Shown here in pieces: positions 1,886-34,390 of a stretch of 64,000 bases of DNA (position 1 is the stretch's first letter; every line of letters begins with the position of its first letter). The DNA lies in the NCBI RefSeq assembly GCF_002864685.1, contig NZ_NMQZ01000002.1, positions 62,001-126,000 of the forward strand, given 5' to 3'. Position numbers and translations under genes: made by a program. The notes beneath the pieces were generated by a model. That model made no database searches. It was not told where the DNA came from and saw nothing but the letters and a program-made list of their open reading frames with translations. The stretch is from Alloalcanivorax mobilis (GTDB lineage Bacteria > Pseudomonadota > Gammaproteobacteria > Pseudomonadales > Alcanivoracaceae).

Positions 1886-2120
1886 TTGTTCGCCATTCAA
1901 AAAGAAATTCCTCCATTCTTTTCTGACACGCCGCAGCACGCCCATGCTTGCCGCGTTTTCACGACACATTCTCCTGCATGAAACGATGCTTTTTGCATCA
2001 CTTATCTTTCGATAATGGTCTTTGATCGGCACCGGTTTGGCACAGATCCTCGCGTTATGCGGCACGTTCTTATGTCGCGATTGAGCGAGGAATTAGTGCG
2101 AACATATTGGAGGCCGGTGA

Positions 2121-6277: not shown

Positions 6278-6289
6278 GGAGGTGTCGCG

Positions 6290-8740: not shown

Positions 8741-8751
8741 GAGGTCTCACC

Positions 8752-9489: not shown

Positions 9490-9500
9490 CGGGCACGGCG

Positions 9501-9794
9501 ATGAAATGCATACCCGTCCTGTTCGCCTTCGCATTGCTGCTGGCCGCCTGCGGTCGGCAGCAGGCGATGTCGGTCAATGCGCTGGCAACTGATCCGGCGC
9601 AGCTTCATGTTCTCCGTGTGCAGTGCCGCCAGGGGAAACATGACCACGTCTTCTGCTCACGTGTCGAACAGGCCAATTGGTACCGTTTTTTCTCCGGCAA
9701 GGCCGGGCCGGACGAATACCAGACACTAGCTGACTTGCCGCCAATTCCGGCCAGCTTCGATGGTCCCTCGGTACCGATGGAGGCTTCGCGATGA
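9501..9794 (+). CDS. EexN/TrbK-like entry-exclusion lipoprotein (second copy)
   Basis: A 97-residue lipoprotein in the trbK position between trbJ and trbL. Signal peptide and lipobox: 'MKCIPVLFAFALLLAAC', with lipid Cys17. The mature part repeats the pattern of the first copy at 1607-1885: 'LHVLRVQC...VFCSRVEQANWYRFF'. Proteins at this position provide entry exclusion in RP4-like systems. The gene overlaps trbL by four bases. Confidence 0.8.
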   Translation: MKCIPVLFAFALLLAACGRQQAMSVNALATDPAQLHVLRVQCRQGKHDHVFCSRVEQANWYRFFSGKAGPDEYQTLADLPPIPASFDGPSVPMEASR

Positions 9795-11158: not shown

Positions 11159-11176
11159 CCCTCAAGGAGGTCCCTC

Positions 11177-11881: not shown

Positions 11882-12870
11882 AACCGTCTTCTCGCTTTTA
11901 CGCTTTGCTGCTGACCCTGCTGGCTCTGTCGGGCTGCGCCACGCAGGGCACGCCACCGCCGGCCATTTCACTCGACGACGCCGTACAGGCCCAGCCACTT
12001 CCCGAACCGCCGAAGCCTGTGGAAGTGGTGCCCGTGCCGGAGGTACTGCCGATGCCGGCGCAGTTGAAACCGTTGCCGGAGACCGGGGAGGCTGAGACGA
12101 CGCCGGAGCCCGCCGATGAAACCGTGCGTGTATCCACGGCCAATGAAGAAGCGCGCATGGCACCGACTCGCGAGGGTTACGTCAATGCCATCCAGGTGTG
12201 GCCCTTTACCGATGGGGCGCTGTATCAGGTCTATGCAGCGGTCGGGCGCGTGACGGTGATTGCGCTTCAGCCGGGGGAAGAGCTGGTCACGGTAGCGGCT
12301 GGTGATACCGTGCGCTGGGTCGTGGGCGACACGTCCAGCGGTGCCGGTGACGAATTGCGCGTCAACGTGCTGGTCAAGCCCATTCGTTCGGACCTGAAAA
12401 CCAACCTGGTCATCACCACCAGCCGGCGCACCTACCTGATCGAACTGACCTCGACGGACAAGGCCTGGATGGCGTCGGTGTCCTGGGATTACCCACGTGA
12501 CCAGATGCTGGCCTTGCAGCGCCGGAATCAGGCCGCCGAGGCGGCCGCACCCGTGGTTAGCGGCTTGGCACTAGAGAATCTGCGTTTTCGCTACGCGATC
12601 AGCGGTAGCCTGCCGCCCTGGAGGCCGCTGCGCGCCTTTGATGATGGACGGAAGGTCTATATCCAGTTCCCGGTGGGTATCGCCCAAGGTGAGCTACCGC
12701 CCCTGTTCGTGATTGGTGCCGAGGGGGATGGGCAGCTGGTGAACTACCGGTTCCGTTCTCCGTACTACATCGTCGATCGACTGTTCGGGGCGGCCGAATT
12801 ACGCCTGGGCGGTGATAAGGGCGATGTGGTGCGCATCGAACGTACCGACGGCGTGGCCCGGAGGGACTGA
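11878..12870 (+). CDS. trbG: TrbG, VirB9-like outer membrane channel lipoprotein
   Basis: A 330-residue VirB9-family protein forming the outer-membrane core ring together with TrbI. It has a lipoprotein signal ('MKPSSRFYALLLTLLALSGC', lipid Cys20), a Pro-rich linker (~25-80) and a beta-rich VirB9 domain (~90-330) with the family stretch 'LVITTSRRTYLIELTSTDKAWM'. The start at 11878 overlaps the trbF stop (ATGA); an in-frame upstream ATG at 11746 is inside trbF and would bury the signal peptide. Confidence 0.93.
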   Translation: MKPSSRFYALLLTLLALSGCATQGTPPPAISLDDAVQAQPLPEPPKPVEVVPVPEVLPMPAQLKPLPETGEAETTPEPADETVRVSTANEEARMAPTREGYVNAIQVWPFTDGALYQVYAAVGRVTVIALQPGEELVTVAAGDTVRWVVGDTSSGAGDELRVNVLVKPIRSDLKTNLVITTSRRTYLIELTSTDKAWMASVSWDYPRDQMLALQRRNQAAEAAAPVVSGLALENLRFRYAISGSLPPWRPLRAFDDGRKVYIQFPVGIAQGELPPLFVIGAEGDGQLVNYRFRSPYYIVDRLFGAAELRLGGDKGDVVRIERTDGVARRD

Positions 12871-12872
12871 AC

Positions 12873-14150
12873 ATGAATCAGGACGAGACGGCAGACCGGA
12901 CCACGCCGCAAGCGGAGAAGGTTGCCCCCGATACCATGACGCTGCGTGCCCAACCGCGCCCGGTGACGCGGCTGAATCGTCGCACTTTGGCAATCCTGAC
13001 CGGTGGCCTGGCGATCACTGTGCTCGGGGCCACGATATGGTCATTGCAGCCGCCGCAGCGTGGGCGCGATGAGCAGACCGAATTGTATAACGTGGAACGT
13101 GTGTCGCGCTCCGAAGAGTTGGCGCAGCTACCCACCGACTATTCCGAACTGCCGCCTGAGGTGCCGGAGTTGGGGCCGCCGTTGCCGGGTGACCTGGGGC
13201 CAGCCATCGTGAACGCACAGCAGCCAGCCGTGGCCAGCTACTCGGCGCCCGGTCATGATCCTGCCGGTGCGCTACGCGAGGAGGAAGAGGCCGCGGCGGC
13301 TTCGCCGCTGTTCTTCCAGACGAGCAACCAGGGCCAAGCCACCACGACAACCGCAGCATCGCCTTCGCCTCCTATGCCAGATATGGGCAATGCCTTGGTG
13401 GCCTTTGATCCGCTGGCCGCCGGGCCAGCCTCGACGTCGGCCCAGTCCACGGATCCCACAGCCGTGCAGAACCGGCAGGACCAGAAAGAAGCGTTTCTGC
13501 AATCTGGAACCACGGAAACCCGTAATAGCGGAGATCTGCAATTGCCCGATTCGCCGTATCAGGTCATGGCCGGGACGGTCATCGCAGGTGCCTTGGTCAC
13601 GGGGATCAAGTCGGATCTGCCGGGCGATGTGATCGCTACCGTGACGGAGCCGGTCTATGACACGGCTACCGGCCAACACCTGTTGATCCCACAGGGCTCA
13701 CGTATCCTGGGGCGCTACAACAGTCAGGTGAGCTACGGGCAGAGTCGGGTTCAGGTCGTCTGGAACCGCATCATACTGCCGGATACCTCCTCGCTGACGC
13801 TCGACAACCTGGCTGGCACCGACCCGGCGGGCTATGCCGGTCTGGAGGATGGTGTCGATTGGCACTGGGATCGTATTTTTGCCGGTGCCGTGCTGACAAC
13901 GCTACTGGGTGTCGGCGCTGAACTGGCCGCACCGGAAAACCGGCAGGACGGCGATCGCGTCATCATCGCCGGTCGCGACAGCGCGCAAGACAGCATCAAT
14001 CAGGTTGGCCAGGAAATGACCCGGCGCAACCTGAACATTCAACCTACCTTGACGGAGCGGCCTGGCTTGTCGGTACGCATTATCGTCAACCGCGACTTGG
14101 TACTTCGTCCTTACCAGCCACTGTTCCTCAACCAGGAAGTGCCACAATGA
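12873..14150 (+). CDS. trbI: TrbI, VirB10-like energy-sensing channel protein
   Basis: A 425-residue VirB10-family protein that spans both membranes and passes conformational changes from the ATPases to the outer ring. It has a cytoplasmic N-terminus, one transmembrane helix (~34-52, 'LAILTGGLAITVLGATIWS'), a Pro-rich periplasmic linker, and the C-terminal beta-barrel domain with 'AGTVIAGALVTGIKSDLPG' and 'LLIPQGSRILGRYNSQVSYG'. It is the last core structural gene of the operon. Confidence 0.94.
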   Translation: MNQDETADRTTPQAEKVAPDTMTLRAQPRPVTRLNRRTLAILTGGLAITVLGATIWSLQPPQRGRDEQTELYNVERVSRSEELAQLPTDYSELPPEVPELGPPLPGDLGPAIVNAQQPAVASYSAPGHDPAGALREEEEAAAASPLFFQTSNQGQATTTTAASPSPPMPDMGNALVAFDPLAAGPASTSAQSTDPTAVQNRQDQKEAFLQSGTTETRNSGDLQLPDSPYQVMAGTVIAGALVTGIKSDLPGDVIATVTEPVYDTATGQHLLIPQGSRILGRYNSQVSYGQSRVQVVWNRIILPDTSSLTLDNLAGTDPAGYAGLEDGVDWHWDRIFAGAVLTTLLGVGAELAAPENRQDGDRVIIAGRDSAQDSINQVGQEMTRRNLNIQPTLTERPGLSVRIIVNRDLVLRPYQPLFLNQEVPQ

Positions 14151-14523: not shown

Positions 14524-15525
14524 TTGCGTATTAACCACGCTATCCTGATCCGCGCACTTCCGCCAGATCGTTTGGAGGACTTCGTTAATGATTGGCTGGC
14601 CCAGCGTTGCAAAGACTACCACAGCCATGAACTTTGGCGTGGCACAGGTGATATGGGACGCGATGTCACGGGCTATGTGACAGATAAGCGTATGGAAGGT
14701 CCGTGGGATAACTTCCAATGTAAGCAGCTCAGCAAGTCACTTTCCGAAAGCTCGGCCTTCATTGAGCTTGGCAAGATATTTATGCACTCATCTGTCGGTG
14801 AGTACTCATTGCCACGCTCCTACATTTTTGTCGCACCGCGAGGTGTGGCTAGGGCTGTGCAGCAGTTTATAGCTCATCCTGAACGCTTTAGAACCGCCTT
14901 TCTCGAACGCTGGGATTCTGATATTTCTGGAAAGCTAGTGGAAAAGCAAAGTATACCACTTAGCCCCGAGATTGTTGCCGCGATTAAAGCATTTGATTTC
15001 ACCAACATCCATTGGCTCGATGCAGCGCGGCTCGTCGAAGATCCCGCGTGCAAGCCCGCTCTGGTTAAATGGTTTGACGAAGATCCTGGCCCCTCGCCAC
15101 GAGGAGTTGTTCCAGATCAGATCGAGGCCAGTGAGTCTTCATACATCGGCCAGCTGCTTAAACTATACGAAGAAAAAGGTCCGGGAACTTTCCCAGATGC
15201 AACAACAGCATTGGCCAGCCCGGAGTTTGGTAAGCATCTGCGTGACCAACGTACTCGCTTCTTTGATTCGGTCGCATTTGATAGGTTTTATAGAGATTCT
15301 ACCCCTGAAGATTACTTGTTTAATTTTAAGGATGAAGTTTATCACGGTGTAGTTGAAATTCATGATGATGAACATGCAAATGGGCTGACGAGGCTACGCC
15401 AAGTGATGCAGCAAGCTGCGATCTTGCAACCATCCGGCATTCTGGGCAAGCATGCAGGTCCTCAAGTGAAACAAGGGACCTGCCATCAGTTCGCAAATGA
15501 CGGACGTTTGCCGTGGCATCGTTAG
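14524..15525 (+). CDS. ABC-3C system effector with PD-(D/E)XK nuclease N-domain
   Basis: A 333-residue protein. The N-terminal ~75 residues carry a restriction-endonuclease-like core: 'GDMGRDVTGY' (Asp47) and 'WDNFQCKQ' (Gln65-Cys-Lys67), the QxK variant common in Mrr-type nucleases. The C-terminal ~200 residues match the adaptor domain of ABC-three-component (ABC-3C) conflict systems. It starts at TTG 14524 with AAGGGGG about 7 bases upstream. The next two genes complete an ABC-3C operon. Inferred role: cutting DNA when the ATPase senses invading or damaged DNA. Codon use is less GC-rich than the trb genes, consistent with recent cargo. Confidence 0.75.
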   Translation: MRINHAILIRALPPDRLEDFVNDWLAQRCKDYHSHELWRGTGDMGRDVTGYVTDKRMEGPWDNFQCKQLSKSLSESSAFIELGKIFMHSSVGEYSLPRSYIFVAPRGVARAVQQFIAHPERFRTAFLERWDSDISGKLVEKQSIPLSPEIVAAIKAFDFTNIHWLDAARLVEDPACKPALVKWFDEDPGPSPRGVVPDQIEASESSYIGQLLKLYEEKGPGTFPDATTALASPEFGKHLRDQRTRFFDSVAFDRFYRDSTPEDYLFNFKDEVYHGVVEIHDDEHANGLTRLRQVMQQAAILQPSGILGKHAGPQVKQGTCHQFANDGRLPWHR

Positions 15526-16028
15526 AGGACAGAATATTGGACAAACATCCGTTCAATAGCACCCTTGAAACTGGTATTCGGGCCTTGGTAGTGCTTGAGG
15601 CTTTTTATCCGCGCCATTGCGATCTGATGGAAATGACGTGGTTTGATCATTTGATCGTACATACAGGCGATATCGATGGGCAGGATGTACCAGAAAGTCT
15701 CCATCCCGATCTGCCTAATCGTACCGGTGAACTCCTAGTTCGTCGTCAGCTGGTAGAGAGAAGCCTGCGTATGATGCAGCAAATGCACCTTGTTGACGTT
15801 TTTGAGACGGAAGCTGGAATAGAATTTCGCGCCAGTGAGGAGGCTCCAAGTTACGTGGAACTTCTGCAGGCGCCTTATTCTCTCGCGCTTAAGGACCGAG
15901 CTAGATGGATGGCGGATCGCTTTGCTCAACAGGAGAACGTTGAAATTCGGGAACTCATTGAAGGCCAGATTGGTCGCTGGACTACGGAATTCACGACCGA
16001 TGACACATCTTCGGGGCGATCAGTATGA
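15513..16028 (+). CDS. ABC-3C system middle component
   Basis: A 171-residue mostly helical protein without catalytic motifs. It starts at GTG 15513, overlapping the nuclease gene by 13 bases, and overlaps the ATPase gene by ATGA. In ABC-3C systems this middle component (a small winged-HTH-like protein) links the effector to the SMC-like ATPase. Features seen: an N-terminal 'LETGIRALVVLEAFYPRHCDL' helical pair and a C-terminal 'MADRFAQQENVEIRELIEG'. Assignment rests mainly on size, gene order and coupling; sequence resemblance is moderate. Confidence 0.7.
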   Translation: MASLEDRILDKHPFNSTLETGIRALVVLEAFYPRHCDLMEMTWFDHLIVHTGDIDGQDVPESLHPDLPNRTGELLVRRQLVERSLRMMQQMHLVDVFETEAGIEFRASEEAPSYVELLQAPYSLALKDRARWMADRFAQQENVEIRELIEGQIGRWTTEFTTDDTSSGRSV

Positions 16029-17893
16029 ATGGTATCCGGCTGCGTCATCTCGTCTTCACTGGCTCCGGCATTGAGCCTGCCGAACTTGAGTTTGATGAGG
16101 GGCTCAATATTATCTATGGTGCCTCGAATACTGGTAAGTCCTTCGCTTCGAAGGCCATTCTGTTCATGCTCGGTGTTTCCAAGAGTCTACCCGCAATTGA
16201 AGAAATTGCTGCTTATGAATCGATTTGGCTAGGCCTGACTCTACCTGATAATCGCGATGTCACGCTTTACCGTGCAACACAGGGTGGCCAGTTCAAGCTC
16301 TATCAGGGGCTACTCAAGAAGGCCGATGTCAAAGATGGTTTAGTGCTGCGTCAGCAGCACGATTCAAAGCGTACTGATACTGTTTCACACCTATTGCTCG
16401 ATGCTATGGGGGTCGCCGGAAAAACGGTCGTTCGAGATGGTAACTGCAAGAAGGACACGCTGTCCATTTACTTGTTATCGCCTTACGTTGTAGTGTCCGA
16501 GCAGGATATTATTGCCGAGAAAAGTCCTGTCTTTACCTCGGGGTCGCCTTCCCAGCGTACCTTCGAGCAGAACTTGTTCAAGTTTTTGCTTACCGGTGTT
16601 GACGACGCTGCGGCCGTTACAGTTCCGAAACCCTCCGAACGCAAAGTGGCCAAGGCTGCGAAAATTGAACTAGTTGATGAGTTGATTGCTCAGATCAATG
16701 TAGAGCTCGGCGAGAATCCGCCAGATGAAAGGGACATCGAAGAACAGCTAGAGCGACTGGAGCAAAGTGCAAGTAACCTTGCGTTTAGGCTAAAGGATGC
16801 CCAAGCAAAACTTGATGCCCTTGCAGGTGAAAGACGAAAATCCATAGAGCGCCGCCGCGAGTTATTAGAAAGGTCGGGAGAGCTTGATCTAACGATTGAG
16901 CGTTTCTCTAAATTACAGGCTGTCTACAGCTCGGACCTTCAGCGCCTGCAGTCAATTGAAGAAGGAGGGTTCGTGCTCGTGGCGATGACCGACATGGATT
17001 GTCCGGTCTGTGGTGCTCCGTCTGATGCCCAAAAACATAATCATGCTGCGGAAGAAATTGCGATGGCGCATAAAGCTGCTGCCGCTGAAGCTCGCAAGAT
17101 CGAGCGTGAACAACGTGAGCTGACTCAAACTATAGCTTCTCTGGAGGCAGAAGCTGTAGGGCTGCGCCGGACCGTTGATTTGGAGAAAACCGAGATTGAT
17201 AGGCTCGATGGCGAGATTGAGAAGGCGCGCCCACATGAAACTTCTTTGCGAGAAAGTTACGAAGTATATGTTTCGAAGCGATCCGAGATAGAAAATGTAC
17301 TCGACCTTTATAAGCGCCGCTCCAATCTGTCGATACGGAGAGCTGAAATCGACGCTGAACCAACCAGACGAAGTAAAGGCGATGCACCATCAGTAGGCCC
17401 AGATTCGACTACATTGTTCCGGTTTGGCGAGACAGTGAAGTCTGTACTAACTGAATGGCGCTTTCCCGATGCAGACAAAGTGCAGTTTGACACAGAAGCT
17501 ATGGATATTATCGTTGCCGGAAAACTCCGTGCCGCCAACGGCAAAGGTGTTAGGGCAATTCTTCATGCAGCTTTTAATGTGGCCATTGTTGTTTTTTGTA
17601 TCGAAAATGAACTTCCATACCCTGGCTTCCTCGTTCTTGACACTCCATTGCTCACTTATCGTGAGCCGATGACATCGCGCTATGGTGAGTTGTCGGAAGA
17701 TGAAAAGGTCCTCAAGAAGACAGGTCTGGCTGAACATTTCTATAAACATCTCTCTAGCCTCAAGGACAAAGTGCAGTTCATCGTAATCGAAAACTCTGAT
17801 CCACCGACTGCTATCCGAAATGTTGCTCGTATTGAGACCTTCAGTGGCCTTGAAGGCAATGGTCGATTTGGTCTATTGGCAAGAAGTACGTGA
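16025..17893 (+). CDS. ABC-3C system SMC/Rad50-like ATPase
   Basis: A 622-residue ABC ATPase of the Rad50/SMC type. Walker A GASNTGKS is at ~32-39, followed by a long coiled coil (~215-450) interrupted by a zinc-hook-like 'CPVCGAP' at ~325, and a C-terminal lobe with Walker B 'GFLVLDTPLL' at ~533-542. The fixed order nuclease effector, small middle protein, ATPase identifies an ABC-3C operon. The ATPase is expected to sense abnormal DNA ends or structures and license the nuclease. Gene is intact. Confidence 0.8.
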   Translation: MNGIRLRHLVFTGSGIEPAELEFDEGLNIIYGASNTGKSFASKAILFMLGVSKSLPAIEEIAAYESIWLGLTLPDNRDVTLYRATQGGQFKLYQGLLKKADVKDGLVLRQQHDSKRTDTVSHLLLDAMGVAGKTVVRDGNCKKDTLSIYLLSPYVVVSEQDIIAEKSPVFTSGSPSQRTFEQNLFKFLLTGVDDAAAVTVPKPSERKVAKAAKIELVDELIAQINVELGENPPDERDIEEQLERLEQSASNLAFRLKDAQAKLDALAGERRKSIERRRELLERSGELDLTIERFSKLQAVYSSDLQRLQSIEEGGFVLVAMTDMDCPVCGAPSDAQKHNHAAEEIAMAHKAAAAEARKIEREQRELTQTIASLEAEAVGLRRTVDLEKTEIDRLDGEIEKARPHETSLRESYEVYVSKRSEIENVLDLYKRRSNLSIRRAEIDAEPTRRSKGDAPSVGPDSTTLFRFGETVKSVLTEWRFPDADKVQFDTEAMDIIVAGKLRAANGKGVRAILHAAFNVAIVVFCIENELPYPGFLVLDTPLLTYREPMTSRYGELSEDEKVLKKTGLAEHFYKHLSSLKDKVQFIVIENSDPPTAIRNVARIETFSGLEGNGRFGLLARST

Positions 17894-18169
17894 TCGCGCC
17901 CGAAGTTTGAATATCACTTTCGTCTTGGCTGTGAGGTTACGCGATTACCACTGTGTCGGGCAGGGGGCTTGGGCATATGGATGATGCGCTGTGCTTCTGG
18001 TACTATGGCCTTTGGTTGATGATGGTATGGAAAACACTGCCGCTGGAAAAATCGCTGCATCACCCGCGGAAACAAAGAGCCCGTGATTCTGACGGTAAAA
18101 GCGACGGTAAAGCCCCAAATCAACCTTTTGTGAAATCTTTACTTTCAATAGGTTAGAGCTCTCGTTGAT
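17894..18169 (+). other. Intergenic stretch without recognised gene
   Basis: Between the ABC-3C ATPase stop and the first copy of the 250-bp repeat. Short open frames on both strands here show no family resemblance. I see no attC-like ends in it. Confidence 0.4.
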
Positions 18170-18419
18170 GATTGAGTGGGAATGATCTGATTTAGGCTGG
18201 TAGTAAGGGCTTACTAAAAGGCCGTCGGCGCGGGAGTGCCGGCGGCCTTTTTGCGTTTTGGGGGAAGCGTTGGTCAAGATATCAGTAGGAGGACAACTTG
18301 CTGAATTTGTAAGCGTCTGACTTTTCTGGTTTTATTTTGCTTTAGGGGAACCTAAGGAAAGTGATATGACGCCGGCGCGTTCATTGGATGTTCGAGATGG
18401 CGTCCTAATTCCTGTTAGT
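18170..18419 (+). repeat. ~250-bp dispersed repeat, copy 1
   Basis: Shared order of elements with the copies at 21099 and 26413: an ATGATCTGA-like start, the palindrome AGTAAGGGCTTACT (18202-18215), a hairpin with T-tract, 'TTGGTCAAGATATCAG', 'CTTTTCTGGTTTTATTTTG', a stem GACGCC...GGCGTC, and the end CCTAATTCCTGTTAG. Sequence after this end is unrelated between copies. It lies 16 bases before the DUF2971 start. It could be a cassette recombination platform (attI-like) or a transcription insulator. Confidence 0.7.
18220..18253 (+). terminator. Rho-independent terminator inside repeat copy 1
   Basis: GC-rich stem GGCCGTCGGC / GCCGGCGGCC with a short GCGGGAGT loop, followed by TTTTT. It would stop plus-strand readthrough from the ABC-3C operon. 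Confidence 0.7.
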
Positions 18420-18435
18420 ACACACTTCAAAATTT

Positions 18436-19221
18436 ATGCTTTATAAATATCTATCTACGAAATCTAAGTCCTATACAAGTATTCTCAATGATCTTGAGGT
18501 TTACTTTGCATCATGTGCTAGGTTTAATGATCCCTTTGAGGGAGTGCCCTACTATTCGTTGCCAAGCAGAGCTGAAATCAAGCAATATCTTTTGAAAAGG
18601 GGAGTGAAAAGAGAAAAGTTAAAGGATAACTTGGATCGAGCAAGGAACCATTTTTTTGAATCTCAAGAAATGCTCTCTAAAGACGATGAATGGCGAGAAG
18701 GCGCAGGCATTTTGTGTCTTACGCCTTACAACGACAATTTGTTAATGTGGTCGCATTATGGAGATCAGCATAAGGGCGTATGTCTAGGGTTTGATGTTGC
18801 TCTTCCCTTTGACGAAATATTTGGTGCGGGATACGACGTGGAATACTCTGAAACGTACCCACAAATTCCTGTGCTCAGAATGGAAGAGCTCCTGGTAGAC
18901 AGTTTGAATGGTTATAAAAATATAGATGGCTATGATGATGTCGTAACAAAACAATTTTATACAAAGGCCGAGTGCTGGAGTTATGAGCAAGAAATTCGTT
19001 TTCTAAGGCCGGCCCTTGCTCATGGTGTAGGTTCTATGCCGTTCCCTGCTATAAAACTAAGAGAAGTAATTCTTGGCTGCAATATTGAAGAAAGTGACAG
19101 GATAAAGACTATGAATCTTGTTAAGAAGAACTTCCCGCATGCCAAAATACTACAGTCAAAAATGGAAGAAAAATATTATAAAGTTAAATATGAAGAAATT
19201 GCTGAAGTCGAGAAGTGCTAA
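18436..19221 (+). CDS. DUF2971 domain protein
   Basis: A 261-residue protein matching DUF2971: 'MLYKYLSTKSKSYTSILNDLEVYFASCARFNDPFEG' reduced here to its core 'ARFNDPFEG', then 'CLTPYNDNLLMWSHYG' and 'HKGVCLGFD'. Genes of this family are frequent in integron cassettes and other accessory DNA; biochemical function is unknown. GC content is low (about 40%). It is preceded by the 250-bp repeat and its stop overlaps the beginning of an attC-like sequence, so it has the outline of a single gene cassette. Its end is TAA within TGCTAACAAGGCGC. Confidence 0.75.
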   Translation: MLYKYLSTKSKSYTSILNDLEVYFASCARFNDPFEGVPYYSLPSRAEIKQYLLKRGVKREKLKDNLDRARNHFFESQEMLSKDDEWREGAGILCLTPYNDNLLMWSHYGDQHKGVCLGFDVALPFDEIFGAGYDVEYSETYPQIPVLRMEELLVDSLNGYKNIDGYDDVVTKQFYTKAECWSYEQEIRFLRPALAHGVGSMPFPAIKLREVILGCNIEESDRIKTMNLVKKNFPHAKILQSKMEEKYYKVKYEEIAEVEKC

Positions 19222-20999: not shown

Positions 21000-21098
21000 A
21001 CGCCGTCCCCTCGCTGCATCTGCCCTGTGAGTTTCTGGAAATCGAATCTCGATGATTGGTAGGGGCATTTACGACAACTCGTCCAAGCCATCGGCGGC

Positions 21099-21350
21099 GA
21101 TTGAGCGTGGATGATCTGAACGGGACAGATAGTAAGGGCTTACTTATAGGGTTGCCGGCGGGAGAGCGTCGGCGGCCTTTTGATTTTTGAAAGAAAGAAT
21201 TGGTCAAGGTATCAGGAAGGGACTGCTCGCTGAGTTTGTAAGTGGCTGACTTTTCTGGTTTTATTTTGCGTTAGGGGGAATTCAGTAAAAATGATATGAC
21301 GCTGGCGCGTTCATTGGATATTCGAGCCGGCGTCCTAATGCCTGTTAGAT
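21099..21350 (+). repeat. ~250-bp dispersed repeat, copy 2
   Basis: Same elements as copy 1: ATGATCTGA, palindrome AGTAAGGGCTTACT (21131-21144), hairpin with T-tract, 'TTGGTCAAGGTATCAG', 'CTTTTCTGGTTTTATTTTG', stem GACGCTGGC...GCCGGCGTC and the end CCTAATGCCTGTTAGAT. Here the last seven bases, GTTAGAT, fit the integron core-site consensus GTTRRRY exactly. It ends about 10 bases before the next ORF start. Confidence 0.72.
21149..21186 (+). terminator. Terminator inside repeat copy 2
   Basis: Stem GTTGCCGGCG / CGTCGGCGGCC (with one mismatch-tolerant pairing) followed by TTTT and then ATTTTT. It would stop transcripts from the Fic gene. Confidence 0.55.
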
Positions 21351-25776: not shown

Positions 25777-26435
25777 TTGCCCCAGGCCCCGATCCGTGCG
25801 CGCTTTCCGCGAGCCATGCCCGCACAACTTCTGGACGCGGCCCGTGCATCTACGCTCGCGCCAGCGACACCCTGGCCGACGAAGCCGGCGTCTCCAGCGG
25901 CACCCTCTACAACGACTTCCGCTCCCGCGAAGCAGTGCTCGAAGCCGTTGGCCTGGAACTCGCCGTCCAACTCTCCGAGCAGATCCTCACCGTCAGCGAA
26001 GCCGTCGAAAGCGGCGCCGAACGCCTCAGCATCGCCGTACGCACCTTCATGAACAAAGCCCGCACCGACCCCGACTGGACCCGCGCCCTGATCACCGTGG
26101 TCCGCTACGCCGAAGGCATGCGCTCCACCCTCGCCACCTACCTCCGCGTCGACCTGCAAGCCGGAAGCCGCCAAGGCGACTTCCACTACGCCCACGAAGA
26201 AATGGCCATGAGCATGGTCATCTCCGCCACCCTGGGCGCCATGAACCTGCTCGTGGAAGACGGTGAAGTGGAACACGCCGACCGGAGCGCTGCGGAAATG
26301 GTGCTGCAGGCGCTGGGGGGAGGCCGCCGGAGAAAGCTAAGCGGATTGCTGGGTTGCCGTTGCCGGGGGAGGCCTGCTAGACGGTCTCCTCCCCAGCGTG
26401 GGTGGCTGGCCTGCGATTTATCTGACTTGGGGAAT
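25777..26435 (+). pseudogene. TetR-family regulator, 5' frameshift/deletion
   Basis: The N-terminal fragment reads 'RARFPRAMPAQLLDAAR' in one frame, then the sequence jumps to another frame for 'DTLADEAGVSSGTLYNDFRS' and an intact-looking ligand-binding domain to 'MVLQALGG'. About ten residues of the first DNA-binding helices are missing at the junction. Downstream the frame runs on without its natural stop into repeat copy 3. High GC and strong C-rich codon bias differ from the neighbours, so it came from another source. It is unlikely to bind DNA now. Confidence 0.6.
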
Positions 26436-26653
26436 TAGTAAGGGCTTACTTAAAAAGTTGCTGGCGCTCGGGCGTTGGCGGCCTTTTTGTTTTTGGGGGG
26501 CAGAGAATTGGCCGAGATGCCAGGAAGAGAATAGTGTGAAGCGTTTGTCAGTGGAGGGCTTTTCTGGTTTTATTTTGTTTCATGAGAGATAAATGAAAAG
26601 ACATCACGCCGGCGCTTTCATTAGGTGCCCATGCTAACGGTCTAATGCTGGTT
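26413..26653 (+). repeat. ~250-bp dispersed repeat, copy 3 (most diverged)
   Basis: Palindrome AGTAAGGGCTTACT (26437-26450) is unchanged from copies 1 and 2; the hairpin plus T-tract, 'GCTTTTCTGGTTTTATTTTG' and 'CACGCCGGCGC.TTCATT' are recognisable; the end reads TCTAATGCTGGTTAT instead of CCTAATGCCTGTTAG. It ends 26 bases before the next gene start. Confidence 0.65.
26456..26490 (+). terminator. Terminator inside repeat copy 3
   Basis: Imperfect stem GTTGCTGGCGC / GCGTTGGCGGC followed by CTTTTTGTTTTT, at the same place as the terminators in the other two copies. Confidence 0.55.
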
Positions 26654-26679
26654 ATACTTAGAAAAATTGGAGTAAAAAA

Positions 26680-27366
26680 ATGGATGAAGTGCCAGGCGGG
26701 CTAATGACGATCCCAGCAGGGACGCTTTTGGATAAATTTGGTTCCGGTACTCATGCTCCTGGGTCAGGGAGTGCGGCGGCACTGATGGGTATCTTGTCGG
26801 CGAAGCTTATTATTACTGTTGGTAAATTGTCTCTGAAGAAGGATGGGTATAAAGCTGACCACAGCAAAATTAAATATATAAATGACAGAATTGAGAAAGA
26901 TATAGAGCCAGAGCTAAAAAGGCTTTTTGATGAAGATGCTAGAATTTTTGATGAGGTTATTAGTTTCCGTGTTGCGCGAGATAAAGCTACCGACAAGAAC
27001 GAAAAGAGGCGTCTGGGGGAACAAGCCAACAATAAGCTGCGTGTCGCCACAGATATCCCGATTCGAATTTGTGAGCTTTCGTTACGGTTAATAGATCATG
27101 GGACGGCCATGTTTGACATGGGCTTTAAGGCTGCTCGAGGAGACAGTGGTGCTGCAGTAAGTTCTGCTGTAGCCGGCGCGATGTCCGCAATCTTTGTAGT
27201 CAGCCTGAACTTGCGCTCCTTTAAACAGAGTGATTGGGCTCAATCTAAAAGAAAGCGCGTAGCTGAGTTGGAGAGAGAGCTGGAGATAAAACAGTTGGAT
27301 GCATTCGGTCGAGTCAGCCAGCTTAAAGAAGAGGATGTCGAGGCTATGTCCTTGGACTTGGATTGA
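26680..27366 (+). CDS. Cyclodeaminase/cyclohydrolase (FTCD-fold) family protein
   Basis: A 228-residue all-helical protein with the formiminotransferase-cyclodeaminase signature near the N-terminus, 'SGTHAPGSGSAAALMGILSA', and 'SGAAVSSAVAGAMSAIFVVS' at ~150-170. The family includes folate cyclodeaminase and methenyl-THF cyclohydrolase, but no histidine-utilisation or folate genes are nearby. Instead a GHKL ATPase-nuclease and AbiH follow on the same strand. GGAG lies 8 bases before the ATG. A terminator follows, so it may be a separate transcript. A nucleotide- or cofactor-sensing role in defence is a guess. Confidence 0.75.
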   Translation: MDEVPGGLMTIPAGTLLDKFGSGTHAPGSGSAAALMGILSAKLIITVGKLSLKKDGYKADHSKIKYINDRIEKDIEPELKRLFDEDARIFDEVISFRVARDKATDKNEKRRLGEQANNKLRVATDIPIRICELSLRLIDHGTAMFDMGFKAARGDSGAAVSSAVAGAMSAIFVVSLNLRSFKQSDWAQSKRKRVAELERELEIKQLDAFGRVSQLKEEDVEAMSLDLD

Positions 27367-27377
27367 GTATAAGCATC

Positions 27378-27399
27378 GGCTGCAAAGCAGCCTATTTTT
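27378..27399 (+). terminator. Rho-independent terminator after cyclodeaminase-like gene
   Basis: GGCTGC AAA GCAGCC followed by TATTTTT, 12 bases after the stop codon. Confidence 0.75.
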
Positions 27400-27498
27400 C
27401 ACAGCATTACAGTTCTAAATCGGTACGTGACCCAGAGTTTAACTTGACATGTAAATCAATTGGCCTGGTGAAAATTTAGTCTGTAAAAAAGGGGAATT

Positions 27499-29436
27499 AT
27501 GGAATACTCGGTCACCTATGAGGATGGGTTTCTAACCAGAGAGATTGGTGCCATTGCCACAAAGGCGGATGTAGCCATCACAGAACTCATTGCGAATGGC
27601 CATGATGCGGGCGCGTCAGAAGTCAGGATTATTTTTCCCGAAGAAAGAGGAAGCCTAATTACGGTCGAGGACAATGGAGTTGGACTTACCGAATCACAAT
27701 TCGAGAAAAGATGGTTGAAGCTTCGCTATGACCGAAAAAAGCATCAAGGCCCATTGGTGGAGATACCAGAAGATAATAATCTGAGAAAGACAAGGCTTGC
27801 CTTCGGGAGAAACGGCGTCGGACGTCATGCAGGTCTCTGTTTTGATGATGAGTACACCGTCGAGACTTGGCGAAACGAAGAGTGCAATATATACGAGCTA
27901 AAGCTTTCATCCGGCCGGCAGCCGATTGAGGTTGGAAGGCACCGAAAGGAGCTTAAGTCAGGTCATGGAACAAAGATAAAGGTCGTTGCTAATAAAAACT
28001 TGATTCCAGTTGAAGAACTGACCGAAACGATATCTGCAAGATTTCTGTTCAATCCAGAATTTAAAGTATATGTAAACGGGAAACTTATAACGCTATCCGA
28101 GCACCCCGGTATTGTCAAAAGAACAGAGATCAATCCCGTCGGCAGCATAAATATAAAATTGACTCTGGTTGATTCATCAACCGCGTCCCGAACCGCTAGG
28201 CAGCACGGGGTGGCTTTTTGGTTGGGAGGTCGTTTATTGGGCGATCCTTCTTGGTCCATAAATGGACAGCAAGTATTCGACGGTCGCAGGTCTTTTGCCA
28301 AGCGATACACCGTGATTGCGGAGTCTGAGGATCTTTTTGACTTCATTGAGGCTGACTGGTCTGGCTTTAAATCCGATTTTTCTGCTCTAAATCTAATAGC
28401 AGAAGAGATTTCTGATTTTGTGAAATCTTGCTACTTAGAACTTTCTAAAAGCGAAATAGAAACAACTAAACGTCAGGTTCTTGATTCGCACAAAAGTGAG
28501 CTAAAAGAATTGCCAAGACTGGCTCGAAGAGAGTTGCTAAGTTTTGTTGACGATATGTTATCCGGAAGTCCTGACATAAAGATTGAGCTTCTTGAGCTTG
28601 CATTTAAGGCGGCACTCAATCTTGAGAAATCTAGAGCTGGAATATCGCTATTATATAAGCTGACGAATATATCACCAAACGACTCCGAGTCGCTGAACTC
28701 GTTCTTGGAAGAATGGAGCGTGTCTGACGCAATGTGCGTTCTCGCCGAGATAGATTCTAGAATCAAAGTAATAGAGGCTATAGATAGACTGAGCGGTGAT
28801 CACAGTGTGGACGAGCTTCATACCTTACACCCCTTGATCGAAAAGGCTCGATGGGTATTCGGTCCTGAATTCGATACGCCAGAGTATGCAAGCAACAGAG
28901 GTCTAATCAAGACAATGGTTGCTGTTTTTGGAGGAAGATATAAGAAACAGGATTTTAAAAATTCTGCAAAAAGACCAGATATTGTGGTTGGTGAGAACTC
29001 ATCTATTAGCTCATTAGGTTTAGAAGAGTTTTCGGGTGAGATAAGAAAAACAAAAAGAGTTTTGTTGATTGAGCTTAAGAAAGGTGGTTTCGAGATTGGC
29101 CGTGGAGAAATGGATCAGGCTAAATACTATGTTGAGGACATTTGGCATGCCGGTGTTGGCTCCTCTCAACCATACATAAAAGCCTTTGTGGTCGGCGAAA
29201 GTATTGATCATCTTACAGGAAAATACCAAACAGTAGGAAAGTCAAGGGATGAGCAGTTTGGAGAAGTTCATGCTGTAACATATTCGGAATTGGTTCGAAG
29301 CGCCGAGGCTCGATTGTTTTCGCTAAAAGAGAGAATCGAGAGTCGATATGATGGTTTGGAGGATGGTCCGCTCCTGGATGAGCTATTGGGGAATCCCGTG
29401 CAAACAGATTTAGATTATGCAGCCGGCCACGATTAA
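27499..29436 (+). CDS. GHKL ATPase fused to PD-(D/E)XK nuclease-like domain
   Basis: A 645-residue protein. The N-terminal ATPase has the Bergerat-fold boxes: Glu29...Asn33 in 'ITELIANGHDAGAS', 'EDNGVG' at 57-62, 'GRNGVGRHAG' and 'SGHGTKIKV', as in Hsp90/MutL/MORC-like ATPases. A helical middle follows. The C-terminal ~170 residues hold 'RPDIVV' (~493) and 'VLLIELKKGGFEIGRGEMDQ' (~522), a PD...(E)xK nuclease core. It resembles restriction or phage-defence ATPase-nucleases; role inferred. GGGGAA lies before the ATG. Gene intact, low GC. Confidence 0.75.
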   Translation: MEYSVTYEDGFLTREIGAIATKADVAITELIANGHDAGASEVRIIFPEERGSLITVEDNGVGLTESQFEKRWLKLRYDRKKHQGPLVEIPEDNNLRKTRLAFGRNGVGRHAGLCFDDEYTVETWRNEECNIYELKLSSGRQPIEVGRHRKELKSGHGTKIKVVANKNLIPVEELTETISARFLFNPEFKVYVNGKLITLSEHPGIVKRTEINPVGSINIKLTLVDSSTASRTARQHGVAFWLGGRLLGDPSWSINGQQVFDGRRSFAKRYTVIAESEDLFDFIEADWSGFKSDFSALNLIAEEISDFVKSCYLELSKSEIETTKRQVLDSHKSELKELPRLARRELLSFVDDMLSGSPDIKIELLELAFKAALNLEKSRAGISLLYKLTNISPNDSESLNSFLEEWSVSDAMCVLAEIDSRIKVIEAIDRLSGDHSVDELHTLHPLIEKARWVFGPEFDTPEYASNRGLIKTMVAVFGGRYKKQDFKNSAKRPDIVVGENSSISSLGLEEFSGEIRKTKRVLLIELKKGGFEIGRGEMDQAKYYVEDIWHAGVGSSQPYIKAFVVGESIDHLTGKYQTVGKSRDEQFGEVHAVTYSELVRSAEARLFSLKERIESRYDGLEDGPLLDELLGNPVQTDLDYAAGHD

Positions 29437-29518
29437 GGTGATTTTTAACAAATGAAAGCACTCGGGCGCAGAAAGCCGCGCTGATGTTTGAGGCGATAGG
29501 TTGCAAGGAGATCGAAGA

Positions 29519-30430
29519 TTGTCAGCCAAAGCGCTTTATATAATAGGTAATGGATTTGACCTGCACCATTGCCTGTCGACCAGCTTCTCTAACTTCAAGG
29601 ATTTTTTGGCTCGTCGTAACCCCGACCTTCAATCTACGATTGAAGAGTATCTTTGCGCTCTCAGCGGAAACTGGGCAAATCTTGAGGAAGCCTTGGCTTA
29701 CTTCGACATTGATCGAGTCCTAGATTATGCTTCGAATTTCTTAGTATCTTATGGCGCGGATGATTGGAGCGATTCATACCATCATGACTATCAATGTGAA
29801 ATAAATGAGATCGTGCAAGCTGTATCTAGCCGGCTGAAGGAAGAGTTTTGTTCTTGGGTGGAGACAGTTCAAATTCCCGATGAAGCAGCAAAAAGAATTC
29901 TCAAGGTAGAGCCGAACGCATTGTTTCTTAATTTCAACTACACAAATACCATTCAAGAGCTTTATTCGAGGGCGCAGCCTCAAGTGCTCCACATTCACGG
30001 CTCAGTCGAAGATGGGGACGAGGGGATTATTCTTGGTCATGGTTGGAGCGCTGCTGAGCGACCGAAATTAAACGAATGGAATGAGTTCGATGATATAGAC
30101 ACACGAGTCATGGAAGGCTACGAGCTTATAGAGAGCTATTCTGAGGATACATTCAAACCAACCGAAGAAATCATAAAGAGAAATCAAGATTTCTTCGCTA
30201 GTCTCCTGAGTGTATCTGACGTTTATGTTTGGGGGCATTCGTTATCAAGCGTTGACCTTCCATATCTCGCTGAGGTTGCAGCTATCACTAACGCAAACCG
30301 CCCAGTTTGGCATATTAGTCACTATAACTCCTCCTCCAGTGCCGAAGATAACGCAGCCGCGATGCCACCCATTGGGGTAGAGGATTTTCGAGTGCGTCAC
30401 CACCAGCTCGCGGAGTATGTCCTTATCTAA
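29519..30430 (+). CDS. AbiH-family abortive infection protein
   Basis: A 303-residue AbiH-like protein: N-terminal 'ALYIIGNGFDLHHCLSTSF', central 'FLNFNYTNTIQELY', 'VLHIHGSVED' and C-terminal 'VYVWGHSLSSVDLPYL'. AbiH proteins block phage growth in lactococci and occur widely as a single gene; the biochemical activity is not settled. The TTG at 29519 is preferred since AAGGAG lies 8 bases before it; TTG 29501 would also be open. An attC-like site starts 4 bases after the stop. Confidence 0.85.
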   Translation: MSAKALYIIGNGFDLHHCLSTSFSNFKDFLARRNPDLQSTIEEYLCALSGNWANLEEALAYFDIDRVLDYASNFLVSYGADDWSDSYHHDYQCEINEIVQAVSSRLKEEFCSWVETVQIPDEAAKRILKVEPNALFLNFNYTNTIQELYSRAQPQVLHIHGSVEDGDEGIILGHGWSAAERPKLNEWNEFDDIDTRVMEGYELIESYSEDTFKPTEEIIKRNQDFFASLLSVSDVYVWGHSLSSVDLPYLAEVAAITNANRPVWHISHYNSSSSAEDNAAAMPPIGVEDFRVRHHQLAEYVLI

Positions 30431-30433
30431 GCA

Positions 30434-30536
30434 ACCTAACAAGTAGTTGCAGTATGTTACGGTCCTGTGGGCCTCTACCAGACAAGTTTTGCGGCGCGTT
30501 GCCTTTCCAAACAGTTACTGAACACCGGGGTTAAGC
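30434..30536 (+). other. attC-like recombination site (103 bp)
   Basis: Left core ACCTAAC (fits RYYYAAC) and right core GTTAAGC (fits GTTRRRY) pair with each other. The inner boxes GTTGCAGTA and (reverse complement of the other side) GTTCAGTA pair except for one extra G, the kind of extrahelical base used by integron integrases to choose the strand. This is the best attC candidate in the window. The ~250 bases after it, to 30789, hold no recognised gene. Confidence 0.7.
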
Positions 30537-30789
30537 AAAAATCGCTGCAGAAGATGGAATGCCTAAAGATAACAGGTACCGTCATTTTTGTTGTCGCTGA
30601 TTGGTCAACCGTTTCTAGGCGCGGTGGACTGTCACGTTAATACCATCACTACACACCGTGCTCCTTGTTGGTGCGGCGGGTTCTGCAACGGTTTCCTTAT
30701 CCTTGGACTGGCCAAGCACGAACACGACATAGAGCGTTCTGCTCTCCAATTGCGCCCCGGTGGCGGGTCACTGATTGTTCATATCTTGG

Positions 30790-32478
30790 TCATTCATCTG
30801 GCCTCCCAAACCACAGATGGGGTGGTATGGGTAACCGGTGGTGCCTACATGCGGTTAAGAACAACGGAAAAAATCCAAATTGGAAAGCTTCAAATTTCAA
30901 TATTTCCGAATGTTCTTTAGCAATACTCTCGACCTCGACTGATAACGAGGCCCTCTCTCCGCTCATGCTTAGTGCTGGCACTGGTACCGCGATACCTATG
31001 CTTTCTCCTTGGCGCCAAATCACGCTGTCCGTCTCTTCATGGGGTACCCATACCTGCTGAGTCATGTGATCTAACTCTTGGTCGACGGTTTCCTGGAAAT
31101 TTTTTAAGTCAGCAGTTGCTTTAAGGCGTTCGAGTCCGACAAGGATAAGCGGAACTAGAATGCTCCCCGTTGTCGAGCGTTGGAAGTACGCATCACTTTG
31201 GTCTGCGGGATGACACGCCAAACGCCGATAGTCCTGCATGCAGGTGACCCAATTCGATCGACGAGCATACCGGTAGGCCATCCTAAAGGCGATCTCTCTG
31301 AAATAGCCTTCAAGGCCGCTCATTCGGCCAGAGACTTCAGCCAAAAGCATGATCATCCCAATCTCGATCTGATGATCGTCCCGGATGGGGGCGACCAGGG
31401 TGGGATTGTTGTTAATCATCAAGATGGCTAGGTCGAGAGCTTCGTCCCGCTTCATTAGATGGGCCTGCATTTGTTCATTGTCCGAGCGGCATGCTATAGC
31501 ATGATGCCAGAGACCGAGTAGAGCCATGCGGCCTAGAGTTTCAAATAGCGAAAGGTTGATATCCAGAGCAGAGCGAGAACGCACAGAGGCAGAAAGGGCG
31601 TGTTGACGGGATGCATGACGGCCGATTTTCTCAATGAGTAGACTTTGCCCCATGCTCAGGTATAGAGACAGTACGTGATCGAGTATTTCAATACGCTCGT
31701 CGCGCCTTGTCTTCGATTTTTCCGGACACCTGCGATAGGCATCCCAAGCGTGTAATAGTGCCAGTTCACAAGCTCGGTATGGCGCATCTAGGTTTTTGGC
31801 ATCGACGCCGTTACCTACGAGGATCCATAGGCAGATTAGCATCTGTCGCAGACGTGTTGTACCAGGCTTTCCAGGGGCTAGATCATTCGTAAGAGCATTA
31901 AGGAGAGCACGAAAGTTGATGTAGGCTTCGTCAGGCTCGCTGACGAGGGCAATTGCCTTTTGAAAATATGATCGATGGTCCGGGTCAAGCAATTCTTGTT
32001 TAAGAATGCCTGAGAGAATCAGGTTTGCGAGCCTGTCTCCATTCCACTCCCGAAAACTTAATGCGTCTTTAGTATTGGTCTGGACAAAGCCGCTCCAGGT
32101 CGAGCGAATGCCTTCCTGGATCTCTCCGCCCATGCAGAGGCAGACTGCAACCGGGAGATCTTGATATTGTGCTGGCACTCTATTTGGAAGGTAGTCATCT
32201 ATGACTTCGATTAGTGAAGGACGAACTCCTTGCAAGGTCCCATCCCAGTCCTGACGGCCAATATCACCGGATTTAATGACGAATAGCATGAGTGATCTCT
32301 CCCTGCCGTTGTCTGGATCCGGCCCTACAGCCGCGACATCAACGCCGGCTTGGCGCCCTCCTATTCGGGGATGGTGGATTAATTCATAACCAAGCTCGCT
32401 AAGAAGTTGCGGTAGCAAGACGTCAAGTCCTCCGCGTTCCTTCATGTCCTGAAGGTGCTGTCTTACCAATAGCTTCAT
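30790..32478 (-). CDS. Unrecognised protein with restriction-nuclease-like N-terminus (gene B of two-gene operon)
   Basis: A 562-residue protein. Residues ~18-80 resemble a PD-(D/E)XK core: 'LLPQLLSELGYELIHHPRIG', 'GRQAGVDVAAVG' (Asp47) and 'LMLFVIKSGDIGRQDWDG' (Lys69). After this the protein is helical with no motif I can name. The stop/start junction TAATG shares one base with the upstream gene, so the two are translationally coupled. GC ~50%, unlike the chromosome. The acidic partner of the lysine is not obvious, so nuclease activity is uncertain. Likely a defence or conflict component, by location. Confidence 0.55.
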   Translation of the reverse strand: MKLLVRQHLQDMKERGGLDVLLPQLLSELGYELIHHPRIGGRQAGVDVAAVGPDPDNGRERSLMLFVIKSGDIGRQDWDGTLQGVRPSLIEVIDDYLPNRVPAQYQDLPVAVCLCMGGEIQEGIRSTWSGFVQTNTKDALSFREWNGDRLANLILSGILKQELLDPDHRSYFQKAIALVSEPDEAYINFRALLNALTNDLAPGKPGTTRLRQMLICLWILVGNGVDAKNLDAPYRACELALLHAWDAYRRCPEKSKTRRDERIEILDHVLSLYLSMGQSLLIEKIGRHASRQHALSASVRSRSALDINLSLFETLGRMALLGLWHHAIACRSDNEQMQAHLMKRDEALDLAILMINNNPTLVAPIRDDHQIEIGMIMLLAEVSGRMSGLEGYFREIAFRMAYRYARRSNWVTCMQDYRRLACHPADQSDAYFQRSTTGSILVPLILVGLERLKATADLKNFQETVDQELDHMTQQVWVPHEETDSVIWRQGESIGIAVPVPALSMSGERASLSVEVESIAKEHSEILKFEAFQFGFFPLFLTACRHHRLPIPPHLWFGRPDE

Positions 32479-34172
32479 TAGTTATCTCTTTGCTCGAACC
32501 GAAATATTTCTAACATATAGTCAGTGCCGGTAGGGTCAAAAAAAATTCCTTTGGGAAGTTCGCTTTCCACGGACATTGCCCCCATTTTTAAAGTCTGGGG
32601 GCGGCGGATTCCTTCGTGATCCATGATGCTGTAGCTGGATCGGTCTCCATAGAGTAGCGTTTGCGTAGTTAAGAGACTGGCAAATAGTGACTTTTCCCTC
32701 GCTGATTCGTGTATTTTTTCGGACTCCTCCGCCTCTTGGAAGCGGACAAGTGCGCGTTGTGAAGATGATGGCTCAAGCTCGACTACGTCCCTCGCCTCCT
32801 CAAAGCCCTCCCATATAACTTCAGCCCGCTCTAGCGCTTCACGAATAAACTTGTTCCCACGCCCTCTCTTCTGAATTAATGACTCTAGCCATTTCCTCAA
32901 AGCTCCTCCGTAGTTTAGTAAAAGCGGGTCGAAGAGTAGATCCGCGGCTGCCGGCGAGGCCGCGCCGCCTTTACGTAGCAACGCAATAATCCATGATGCT
33001 GCCGTCATCGGGGCTATAAACAAGTAACCAATGGCCTTTCGGCAAACGAAAATCTGATCTTTGGCACTGTCTGGAAGCACGTCAGGCGGGACATTAAGGT
33101 TTGGTTCGGTGCTGTTAACCTCGGAGAAGCAGTGGGCGAGAGCTGTACACATTTGGTGGTCGCCTTCCAGCAGCCACTTAGTTGCCAAGCGTGCGCGCTC
33201 GCCAGCCAATTCACTAGTGTCGTCGGAAAAAAATTGGCGCAGAGACTTGCTGCCGACTTGACCCTGTGTTTTCGAAATGAGAGTGGCAACTGTTTGCCCG
33301 ATCTCGGCTGGATATTCCGGCCACAGTTCGCTTAATGCTGTTTCGGCTTGCTGAACCGTGGCGGCCTTTTCTGGATTAATTGATAGGAGTCCCCTCAAGC
33401 AGCTTGCCACCTCCCTGTCGCTCATTTTTTTTCCGTGCCAGTATAGAGCCGTAGCCATCATATGGACTGCGGTGGGATCGGTTGATCCTGAGAGTTGGTC
33501 TAGCGCGGCCGCAATCTCTGATCGGTCGATTGTGGGGTGTTTTTCCGCGATGTCGAGTGCGGCCTTGATCAAGCTGGCGGCTTCCTCATGCGGAAATGAC
33601 TCTATGGCTTCGAGGATCGTGCTAAGTGAGCTTAATGCTTCGCTTTCATCTAAGGTCATGCGGGATAGAGCGAGTACTCCCGCTGCCCGCTCATCTCCTT
33701 CGTTTTTGGCCGATCGCTGCGCCTCCTCGGGATCCCCGGTAGCCTGTAGAGCAAAAACGAGGTGACGAAGTGCAAGTGGATCTCCGGCGCGTGCCGACAC
33801 GATCACTTCGCTTGCGCGGCGGTCATCTTTTGCACACCACTTGAGAAACGCTGCATTCGGCTGGTTCGCAGCGAGATCCTCTCCTCCCTGTTCCACCAGT
33901 GTCGAGACCAAAGCCATGATTTCCGGTGGGGCTCTCACTAAATGCGGGCTAACTTGGCAAAGTACAATTTGGATATTGAAGAAATTGGACCCGTGTAGTT
34001 TACCTAATGCGTCAATATCTGCGTCTGAAAGCAAATCGTTTCGGGAGGAGGCTCCGCGTGCTATAGCTTCTATTAAATTTTCATTATTGCGATCTGATGG
34101 AGCTAGTACTTGTGCCCCCGCTATGAGGCCTTGGTCTCGTACAATTTTCTCAATCTCATCGTCTGTTATCAT
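32478..34172 (-). CDS. Unrecognised helical-repeat-like protein (gene A of two-gene operon)
   Basis: A 564-residue, Ala/Leu/Glu-rich, almost entirely helical protein. Segments of ~35-40 residues ('DPLALRHLVFALQATGDPEE', 'DRSEIAAALDQLSGSTDPTA', 'AVHMMATALYWHGKKMSDRE') suggest TPR- or HEAT-like repeats. One hydrophobic patch near 'GYLFIAPMTAASWIIALLRK' could touch membrane. No signal peptide, no nucleotide-binding motif. It is the first gene of the minus-strand pair with 30790-32478. I do not recognise either gene; the repeat protein could be a sensor or scaffold for the nuclease-like partner. Confidence 0.5.
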   Translation of the reverse strand: MITDDEIEKIVRDQGLIAGAQVLAPSDRNNENLIEAIARGASSRNDLLSDADIDALGKLHGSNFFNIQIVLCQVSPHLVRAPPEIMALVSTLVEQGGEDLAANQPNAAFLKWCAKDDRRASEVIVSARAGDPLALRHLVFALQATGDPEEAQRSAKNEGDERAAGVLALSRMTLDESEALSSLSTILEAIESFPHEEAASLIKAALDIAEKHPTIDRSEIAAALDQLSGSTDPTAVHMMATALYWHGKKMSDREVASCLRGLLSINPEKAATVQQAETALSELWPEYPAEIGQTVATLISKTQGQVGSKSLRQFFSDDTSELAGERARLATKWLLEGDHQMCTALAHCFSEVNSTEPNLNVPPDVLPDSAKDQIFVCRKAIGYLFIAPMTAASWIIALLRKGGAASPAAADLLFDPLLLNYGGALRKWLESLIQKRGRGNKFIREALERAEVIWEGFEEARDVVELEPSSSQRALVRFQEAEESEKIHESAREKSLFASLLTTQTLLYGDRSSYSIMDHEGIRRPQTLKMGAMSVESELPKGIFFDPTGTDYMLEIFRFEQRDN

Positions 34173-34246
34173 GCCCGGGTCCCTAACGCTATCGAGCTTA
34201 GCTCTTCAGCTAACACTCCTTCCAGCCAATGCCGTCCCTTCGCCTG

Positions 34247-34390
34247 TTAAGCATTGAGTAACGCTAATTTAATTGCTTCCGCCCCCTTTCGGTAGCACAC
34301 CACAGCCAAAAGCTCAGAATCAACCCAAACACCCCAGTAACGGCTCCCACGATAGTGACCGATCTCAATGTTCGGCTTGCGCTTTTTCAT
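34247..34390 (-). CDS. Small island-type protein (47 aa)
   Basis: The minus strand from ATG 34390 reads MKKRKPNIEIGHYRGSRYWG and on to 'VVCYRKGAEAIKLALLNA' before TAA, 47 residues. The start is preceded by GGGATG rather than a strong ribosome site. The compact Tyr/Arg/Trp-rich pattern looks like the small proteins of unknown function found beside integrases or at ends of genomic islands. Its stop lies in GCTTAACAGGCG, which looks like an attC left core on the minus strand, but no convincing right half follows. Confidence 0.5.
   Translation of the reverse strand: MKKRKPNIEIGHYRGSRYWGVWVDSELLAVVCYRKGAEAIKLALLNA

Follow-up and report, generated by a model that had tools for sequence, protein, structure and literature searches.

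Two genes on the minus strand, oloA and oloB, lie within the window, by which we mean the whole 64,000-nucleotide stretch of Alloalcanivorax mobilis DNA that was analysed. They and the surrounding features are as follows.

2121-14150: IncP-type transfer module with TraG, TrbB, TrbE, TrbL, TrbG and TrbI
14524-17893: Lamassu operon LmuA-LmuC-LmuB
18436-19221: PDC-S31
26623..34252, no strand assigned: variable insert of the lldD hotspot, encoding an FTCD_C protein, a GHKL-type ATPase protein, AbiH and Olokun; its limits follow from homology with relatives in the genus
26680-27366, plus strand: FTCD_C (formiminotransferase-cyclodeaminase) domain protein, 228 aa, inside the defence insert
27499-29436, plus strand: GHKL-type ATPase protein, 645 aa (HATPase_c_3, 4.3e-16)
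29501-30430, plus strand: AbiH
30790..32478, minus strand: oloB, 562 codons, ATG start; restriction-endonuclease-like domain 1-161, helical body ~162-470, C-terminal part 471-562
31996..32478, minus strand: restriction-like domain of OloB (residues 1-161); D47 codon 32338-32340, K69 codon 32272-32274
32476..32480, minus strand: TAATG junction at which the oloA stop and the oloB start have one base in common; putative translational coupling
32478..34172, minus strand: oloA, 564 codons, ATG start; HEAT/armadillo-like solenoid (~4-461) and conserved C-terminal segment (~462-560)

The first-pass annotation had described two coupled genes of ~563 residues with a TAATG junction, placed in defence-rich surroundings and on the strand opposite to their neighbours, and this layout holds: the ORFs of 564 and 562 aa have one base in common, plus-strand genes occupy 26680-30430, and LmuA/LmuC/LmuB (Lamassu), PDC-S31 and AbiH all fall within 14.5-34.2 kb. 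Its remark that the two genes are of equal size is true of the window copy but not as a rule, with OloA of relatives measuring 300 or 679 codons next to an OloB of ~563-579. oloA is transcribed first and oloB second, and an ORF overlap of 1 to 17 bases also occurs in most of the fetched relatives. The G+C content of oloA (51.6%) and oloB (50.7%) is lower than that of the neighbouring lldD (70.3%) and the trb transfer genes (63.0%), which speaks for a horizontal origin; the pair probably arrived by horizontal transfer and settled next to lldD, at a defence locus of variable content. Scans for promoters (2 found, 4.1 expected) and terminators (5 found, 4.5 expected) stayed at chance level.

The pair had initially been taken for an unrecognised system, a reading that is ruled out by near-full-length matches to PADLOC models of a named one. 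OloB matches PDLC03926 (2e-162, profile 1-551 of 556) and OloA matches PDLC03925 (1.8e-86, profile 44-595 of 596), these OloB and OloA models being the only ones matched by the two proteins at E <= 1; Pfam and NCBIfam give nothing above cut-off for either protein. oloAB is thus the already described anti-phage system Olokun and not new, although the earlier picture of a two-gene operon in a defence-rich region, encoding a nuclease-like and a helical-repeat protein paired in nearly every relative seen, survives. The nearest fetched relatives are 65-72% identical for OloB and 50-57% for OloA. In the passages available, Olokun is credited to Millman et al. 2022 (PMC12926258), counted among the systems of reference 7 (PMC10121019) and, in a 2025 paper, said to lack thorough characterisation (PMC12592470). 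A Pseudomonas study tabulates it under nuclease activity (PMC10855318), so that, as a label in that table, the nuclease idea has been published before. Within the literature searched no mechanism paper on Olokun was found, the passages naming both Olokun and phage being mentions or listings. From this family identity, the window copy is predicted to protect against phage, given that PADLOC and the literature file Olokun as anti-phage.

For OloB, a restriction-like core with Asp47 and Lys69 followed by a long helical body had been proposed, with structure prediction suggested as the check; both the model and the alignment agree with this. D47 and K69 are invariant in 27/27 sequences (21 aligned in A1 and 6 further; the count omits L001/L012, which are the window itself, L006, which scores the same as L005, L014 from G090, L015 from G234, and L029-L033, which are contigs of L026-L029 again). 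The 21 aligned sequences form 12 groups at under 50% identity, and 14 of the 24 invariant positions lie within residues 1-160 of 562. The predicted order of elements is helix-strand-strand-strand-helix-strand, followed by helices over 166-468, with D47 just before the second strand and K69 at the end of the third. In a structure model of moderate confidence (mean pLDDT 72.5, built from 8 sequences), residues 1-161 adopt a restriction-like core fold whose best structural matches are the restriction enzymes FokI and MspJI, with AF1548 also among the nearest folds; no Foldseek match of OloB reaches E <= 0.001. MspJI is a modification-dependent restriction enzyme. Sequence searches returned no Pfam nuclease family at E <= 1 in the 21 members, no NCBIfam nuclease family for the window OloB, and, for the OloB profile against sequences of solved structures, only unrelated matches at chance level (best E 0.28).

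OloB keeps the catalytic-type Asp and Lys of the PD-(D/E)xK superfamily but lacks the canonical acid two residues before the Lys, position 67 being V, S, I or T in 27/27. Because of this missing acid, we file OloB only as having a restriction-like fold and not as a canonical PD-(D/E)xK member, and its putative activity would need a relocated acid. Such relocation is found in accepted members of the superfamily, for example Cfr10I.

OloA had been read as helical repeats throughout, which is right for residues 4-461, where the model has 26 helices in an array of paired helices as in HEAT/ARM repeats, but not for the last ~100 residues. These form no repeat array and carry a conserved motif, LLYGxxS...E.P...DP; modelled alone, OloA has pLDDT under 50 over 461-468, 487-515 and 526-564. 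On the strength of the model, the architecture of OloA is HEAT/ARM-like. The solenoid resembles protein-binding scaffolds, a type that can also bind DNA, and the sequences of solved structures yield weak adaptin/HEAT matches (best 0.0027). No helicase family is listed among the Pfam matches of OloA members or the PADLOC matches of the pair, though a missing match is no proof. The OloA alignment (A2) is too diverse for a pattern search.

The first-pass annotation had also asked whether the two genes travel together, and by and large they do, being adjacent and co-oriented in 9/9 OloB genomes and in 21/21 short-form plasmid records. Within a phylum sample of 398 genomes, the OloB model matches 9 and the OloA model 17, an OloA match directly adjoining OloB in all 9; both genes are reduced to fragments in G234, and OloA of G375 seems to be split across two contigs. 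The 8 genomes with OloA only have weak matches (7.2e-5 to 8.2e-4), as expected of generic helical repeats, and since the OloA model also matches 2/14 well-known control genomes (OloB model, 0/14), weak OloA matches mean little. A class sample of 369 genomes contains 4 OloB genomes, and both new ones (G452, G717) have OloA upstream; within the genus, OloB occurs in 1/13 genomes, the window's own.

On plasmids, tblastn of OloB matched 34 records, 12 of them over at least 80% of the query, and OloA lies upstream in 8/8 opened long-match records, in one (L020) with transposase genes between the two. The opened records exclude H2, H4, H5, H8, H13 and all but two of the 21 short-form ones. Viral contigs have the pair in 4/4 distinct loci. 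Scans with two other OloB proteins added no new locus. Searching viral_contigs with one OloA sequence yielded no confirmed relative, a search that was too narrow given the OloB-found pairs there. In E. coli, 14 of 5,426 genomes carry a relative, ~70% identical in DNA, of pair L028 from the viral contigs, the opened copy (MLI104K1) being in a prophage beside phage tail genes.

Two loci call for separate mention. The remnant in G234 (L015/L041) passes from OloA profile 5-256 directly to OloB profile 511-555, as if one deletion had taken out the middle of the pair. In G090, another of the 9 OloB genomes, a pair (L014 1387-2832, L040 1372-3927) matches PADLOC OloB at 7.9e-51 and OloA at 3.4e-45 (171.8 and 153.4 bits) yet gives no alignment with our Olokun alignments; by eye, an ELK motif lies near the C-terminus of its 'OloB'. 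Either this is a very divergent Olokun branch or the PADLOC models are over-broad.

The short-form records are the 21 of the 34 plasmid records (19 Klebsiella, 1 Raoultella, 1 Enterobacter) in which the tblastn match is limited to OloB 1-195. The two that were opened (L016, L017) encode a full-length OloB (563 and 565 aa; PADLOC 9.9e-84 and 5e-81) and, upstream of it, a 300-aa OloA whose match to the OloA model is confined to the C-terminal part of that model (profile 360-589, 4.4e-16, and profile 313-589, 1.2e-18); hhalign of the first of the two against our OloA alignment gives 96.5%. As a tblastn query, the 300-aa OloA picks out these 21 records again, its match directly adjoining that of OloB and covering its full length in 20 and residues 204-300 in AP023265. 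Genome G178 has the same layout, so that short Olokun, a 300-codon OloA with a full OloB, is documented at three loci:

L016, 5096-7686
L017, 4096-6674
L013 (genome G178), 593-3168

All three share with the window the OloB layout with E14, D47 and K69 and PADLOC matches of both proteins, and differ from it in the 300-codon OloA that aligns to the C-terminal part only. One lineage, found in plasmids and G178, thus does without the N-terminal OloA solenoid, and the C-terminal segment is present in every examined pair that is not a fragment. In L016 a further gene precedes the short OloA; we rejected it as part of the short form, as it has no counterpart in L017 or L013 (the latter with only ~0.6 kb upstream).

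The insert that holds Olokun (26623-34252) is flanked by the lldD side and, at its other end, by a TetR-type gene, recognised by eye, that is accompanied by a ~240-bp repeat. Apart from the window's own, the genus sample has 12 genomes; stretches from 11 of them (all except G403) were compared, and 9 have both borders, that on the left in G405 being a 92-base match; G406 and G407, at contig ends, were not judged. These 9 relatives (L072-L074, L077-L082) have inserts of 2.6-12.5 kb and differing content at the lldD site, with 50 ORFs of 120 codons or more once overlaps were removed. PADLOC, run on 10 of these ORFs from 7/9 inserts, reported a reverse transcriptase of DRT4 type together with a TIR protein in G400, Old/Ari-like in G404, MzaC in G408, Dsr1 in G401, SspC and SspD in G405 and, weakly (6.6e-7), PDC-S50 in G398; one ORF each in G398 and G399 had no PADLOC match. 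Given these varied defence genes at the same site, Olokun is here a tenant of a defence hotspot beside lldD.

Imperfect direct repeats of ~240 bp lie at 18157-18418, 21086-21349 and 26420-26655 and recur in genus relatives, where a cassette and a TetR-type gene often lie next to them; by way of recombination they may promote the exchange of cassettes. The transfer module at 2121-14150 belongs, we infer, to an ICE, and DNA similarity to the genus relative G408 stops at 14414. Within the insert, the GHKL-type ATPase gene has relatives in 21 plasmid records. Its product shows, by eye, a PD...ELK nuclease-like motif near residues 495-525 and is possibly, as judged from its sequence, a single-gene ATPase-nuclease defence protein. 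The FTCD_C gene is rejected as its fixed partner, being absent by annotation beside the ATPase relatives in the 3 opened of the 21 records.

Building on what the computation established (family identity, pairing, invariance of D47 and K69, the OloB fold and the OloA architecture), we propose, with moderate confidence in the account as a whole, that this is a horizontally gained Olokun in which OloA acts as sensor and OloB as a nuclease released on recognition. OloA and OloB would form a complex, likely an obligate one, in which the conserved C-terminal segment of OloA, poorly modelled alone, may dock on OloB. The fast-evolving N-terminal solenoid of OloA and the helical body of OloB would recognise something made by the phage or nucleic acid in an abnormal state; this would release the OloB nuclease, with D47, K69 and a helix acid (E14, D19 or E91) in place of the acid absent at 67 as its presumptive site. 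OloB would then cut DNA, of the phage or of phage and host alike, and so stop the infection. As far as the models go, OloB is probably the protein that cuts nucleic acid, and OloA, built like a spring, is a scaffold with a possible role in sensing infection. A more specific version, which we offer tentatively and regard as possible but doubtful, pictures Olokun as a modular alarm, in which OloB and the OloA C-terminal segment would make up the constant core and the solenoid would be an exchangeable sensor; here the plasmid form without the N-terminal solenoid would be the minimal version, and OloB a restriction-like nuclease with a relocated acid (E14, D19 or E91) in the manner of Cfr10I.

The structural matches of OloB 1-161 to FokI and MspJI would also be expected if OloAB were a constitutive type IV-like restriction complex, with OloB cutting incoming DNA that carries or is missing a feature read by OloA or by the OloB helical body, and with neither infection trigger nor cell death. 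In keeping with this, no methyltransferase gene directly adjoins the pair in 8 annotated plasmid regions, one lying 1.5 kb downstream in L017 and another, with its own helicase, ~5 kb away in L021. Yet no DNA-recognition domain was identified and the OloA solenoid resembles protein-binding scaffolds, even if such scaffolds can bind DNA, and we hold this reading to be unlikely. Somewhat less likely still is a restriction-like domain without catalysis, either dead or confined to nucleic-acid binding, with the helical parts providing defence by some other activity: 27/27 sequences do lack the canonical acid ahead of K69, but D47 and K69 are kept in all of them despite the 12 groups under 50% identity, and the 14 of 24 invariant positions within OloB 1-160 are at odds with the loss expected of a dead domain.

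Two further alternatives touch the target rather than the machinery, and we give each of them little credence. The restriction-like superfamily includes RNA cutters, and OloB might cut RNA such as tRNA or mRNA in place of DNA; the nearest structural matches of known substrate are, however, DNA endonucleases. Similarly, the presence of the pair on plasmids typed as conjugative, beside tail genes in the prophage of E. coli MLI104K1 and near the ICE transfer module in the window would suit a system whose main targets are competing mobile elements (plasmids, prophages, ICEs) rather than lytic phage, against which stands the classification of Olokun as anti-phage defence by PADLOC and in the passages of the literature available.

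By itself, a further genome with Olokun is an ordinary find. Against the literature searched, what is new here are details: the lldD hotspot, the short form, and the exact residues of a site whose canonical acid is absent; together with the alignment and the fold match, residues D47, K69, E14, D19 and E91 and the naturally short form offer direct handles for experiments.

Compared with described Olokun, the window copy has the same near-full-length family matches, gene order oloA-oloB, coupling and defence-island setting, and departs in sequence only. With the FokI nuclease domain, MspJI and AF1548, OloB 1-161 shares the restriction-endonuclease-like fold, but it differs in the missing (D/E)xK acid, the long helical body after the domain and the partner gene. 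In the parts of the literature examined, the nearest working analogy for Olokun is Hachiman (HamA nuclease and HamB sensor helicase), in which the sensor helicase is described as holding the nuclease back until damage is sensed (PMC12278908). The likeness would be one of working only, a two-gene complex with a partner that restrains and licenses a nuclease; the partner in Hachiman is a helicase, whereas OloA of Olokun looks like a HEAT/ARM-type solenoid.
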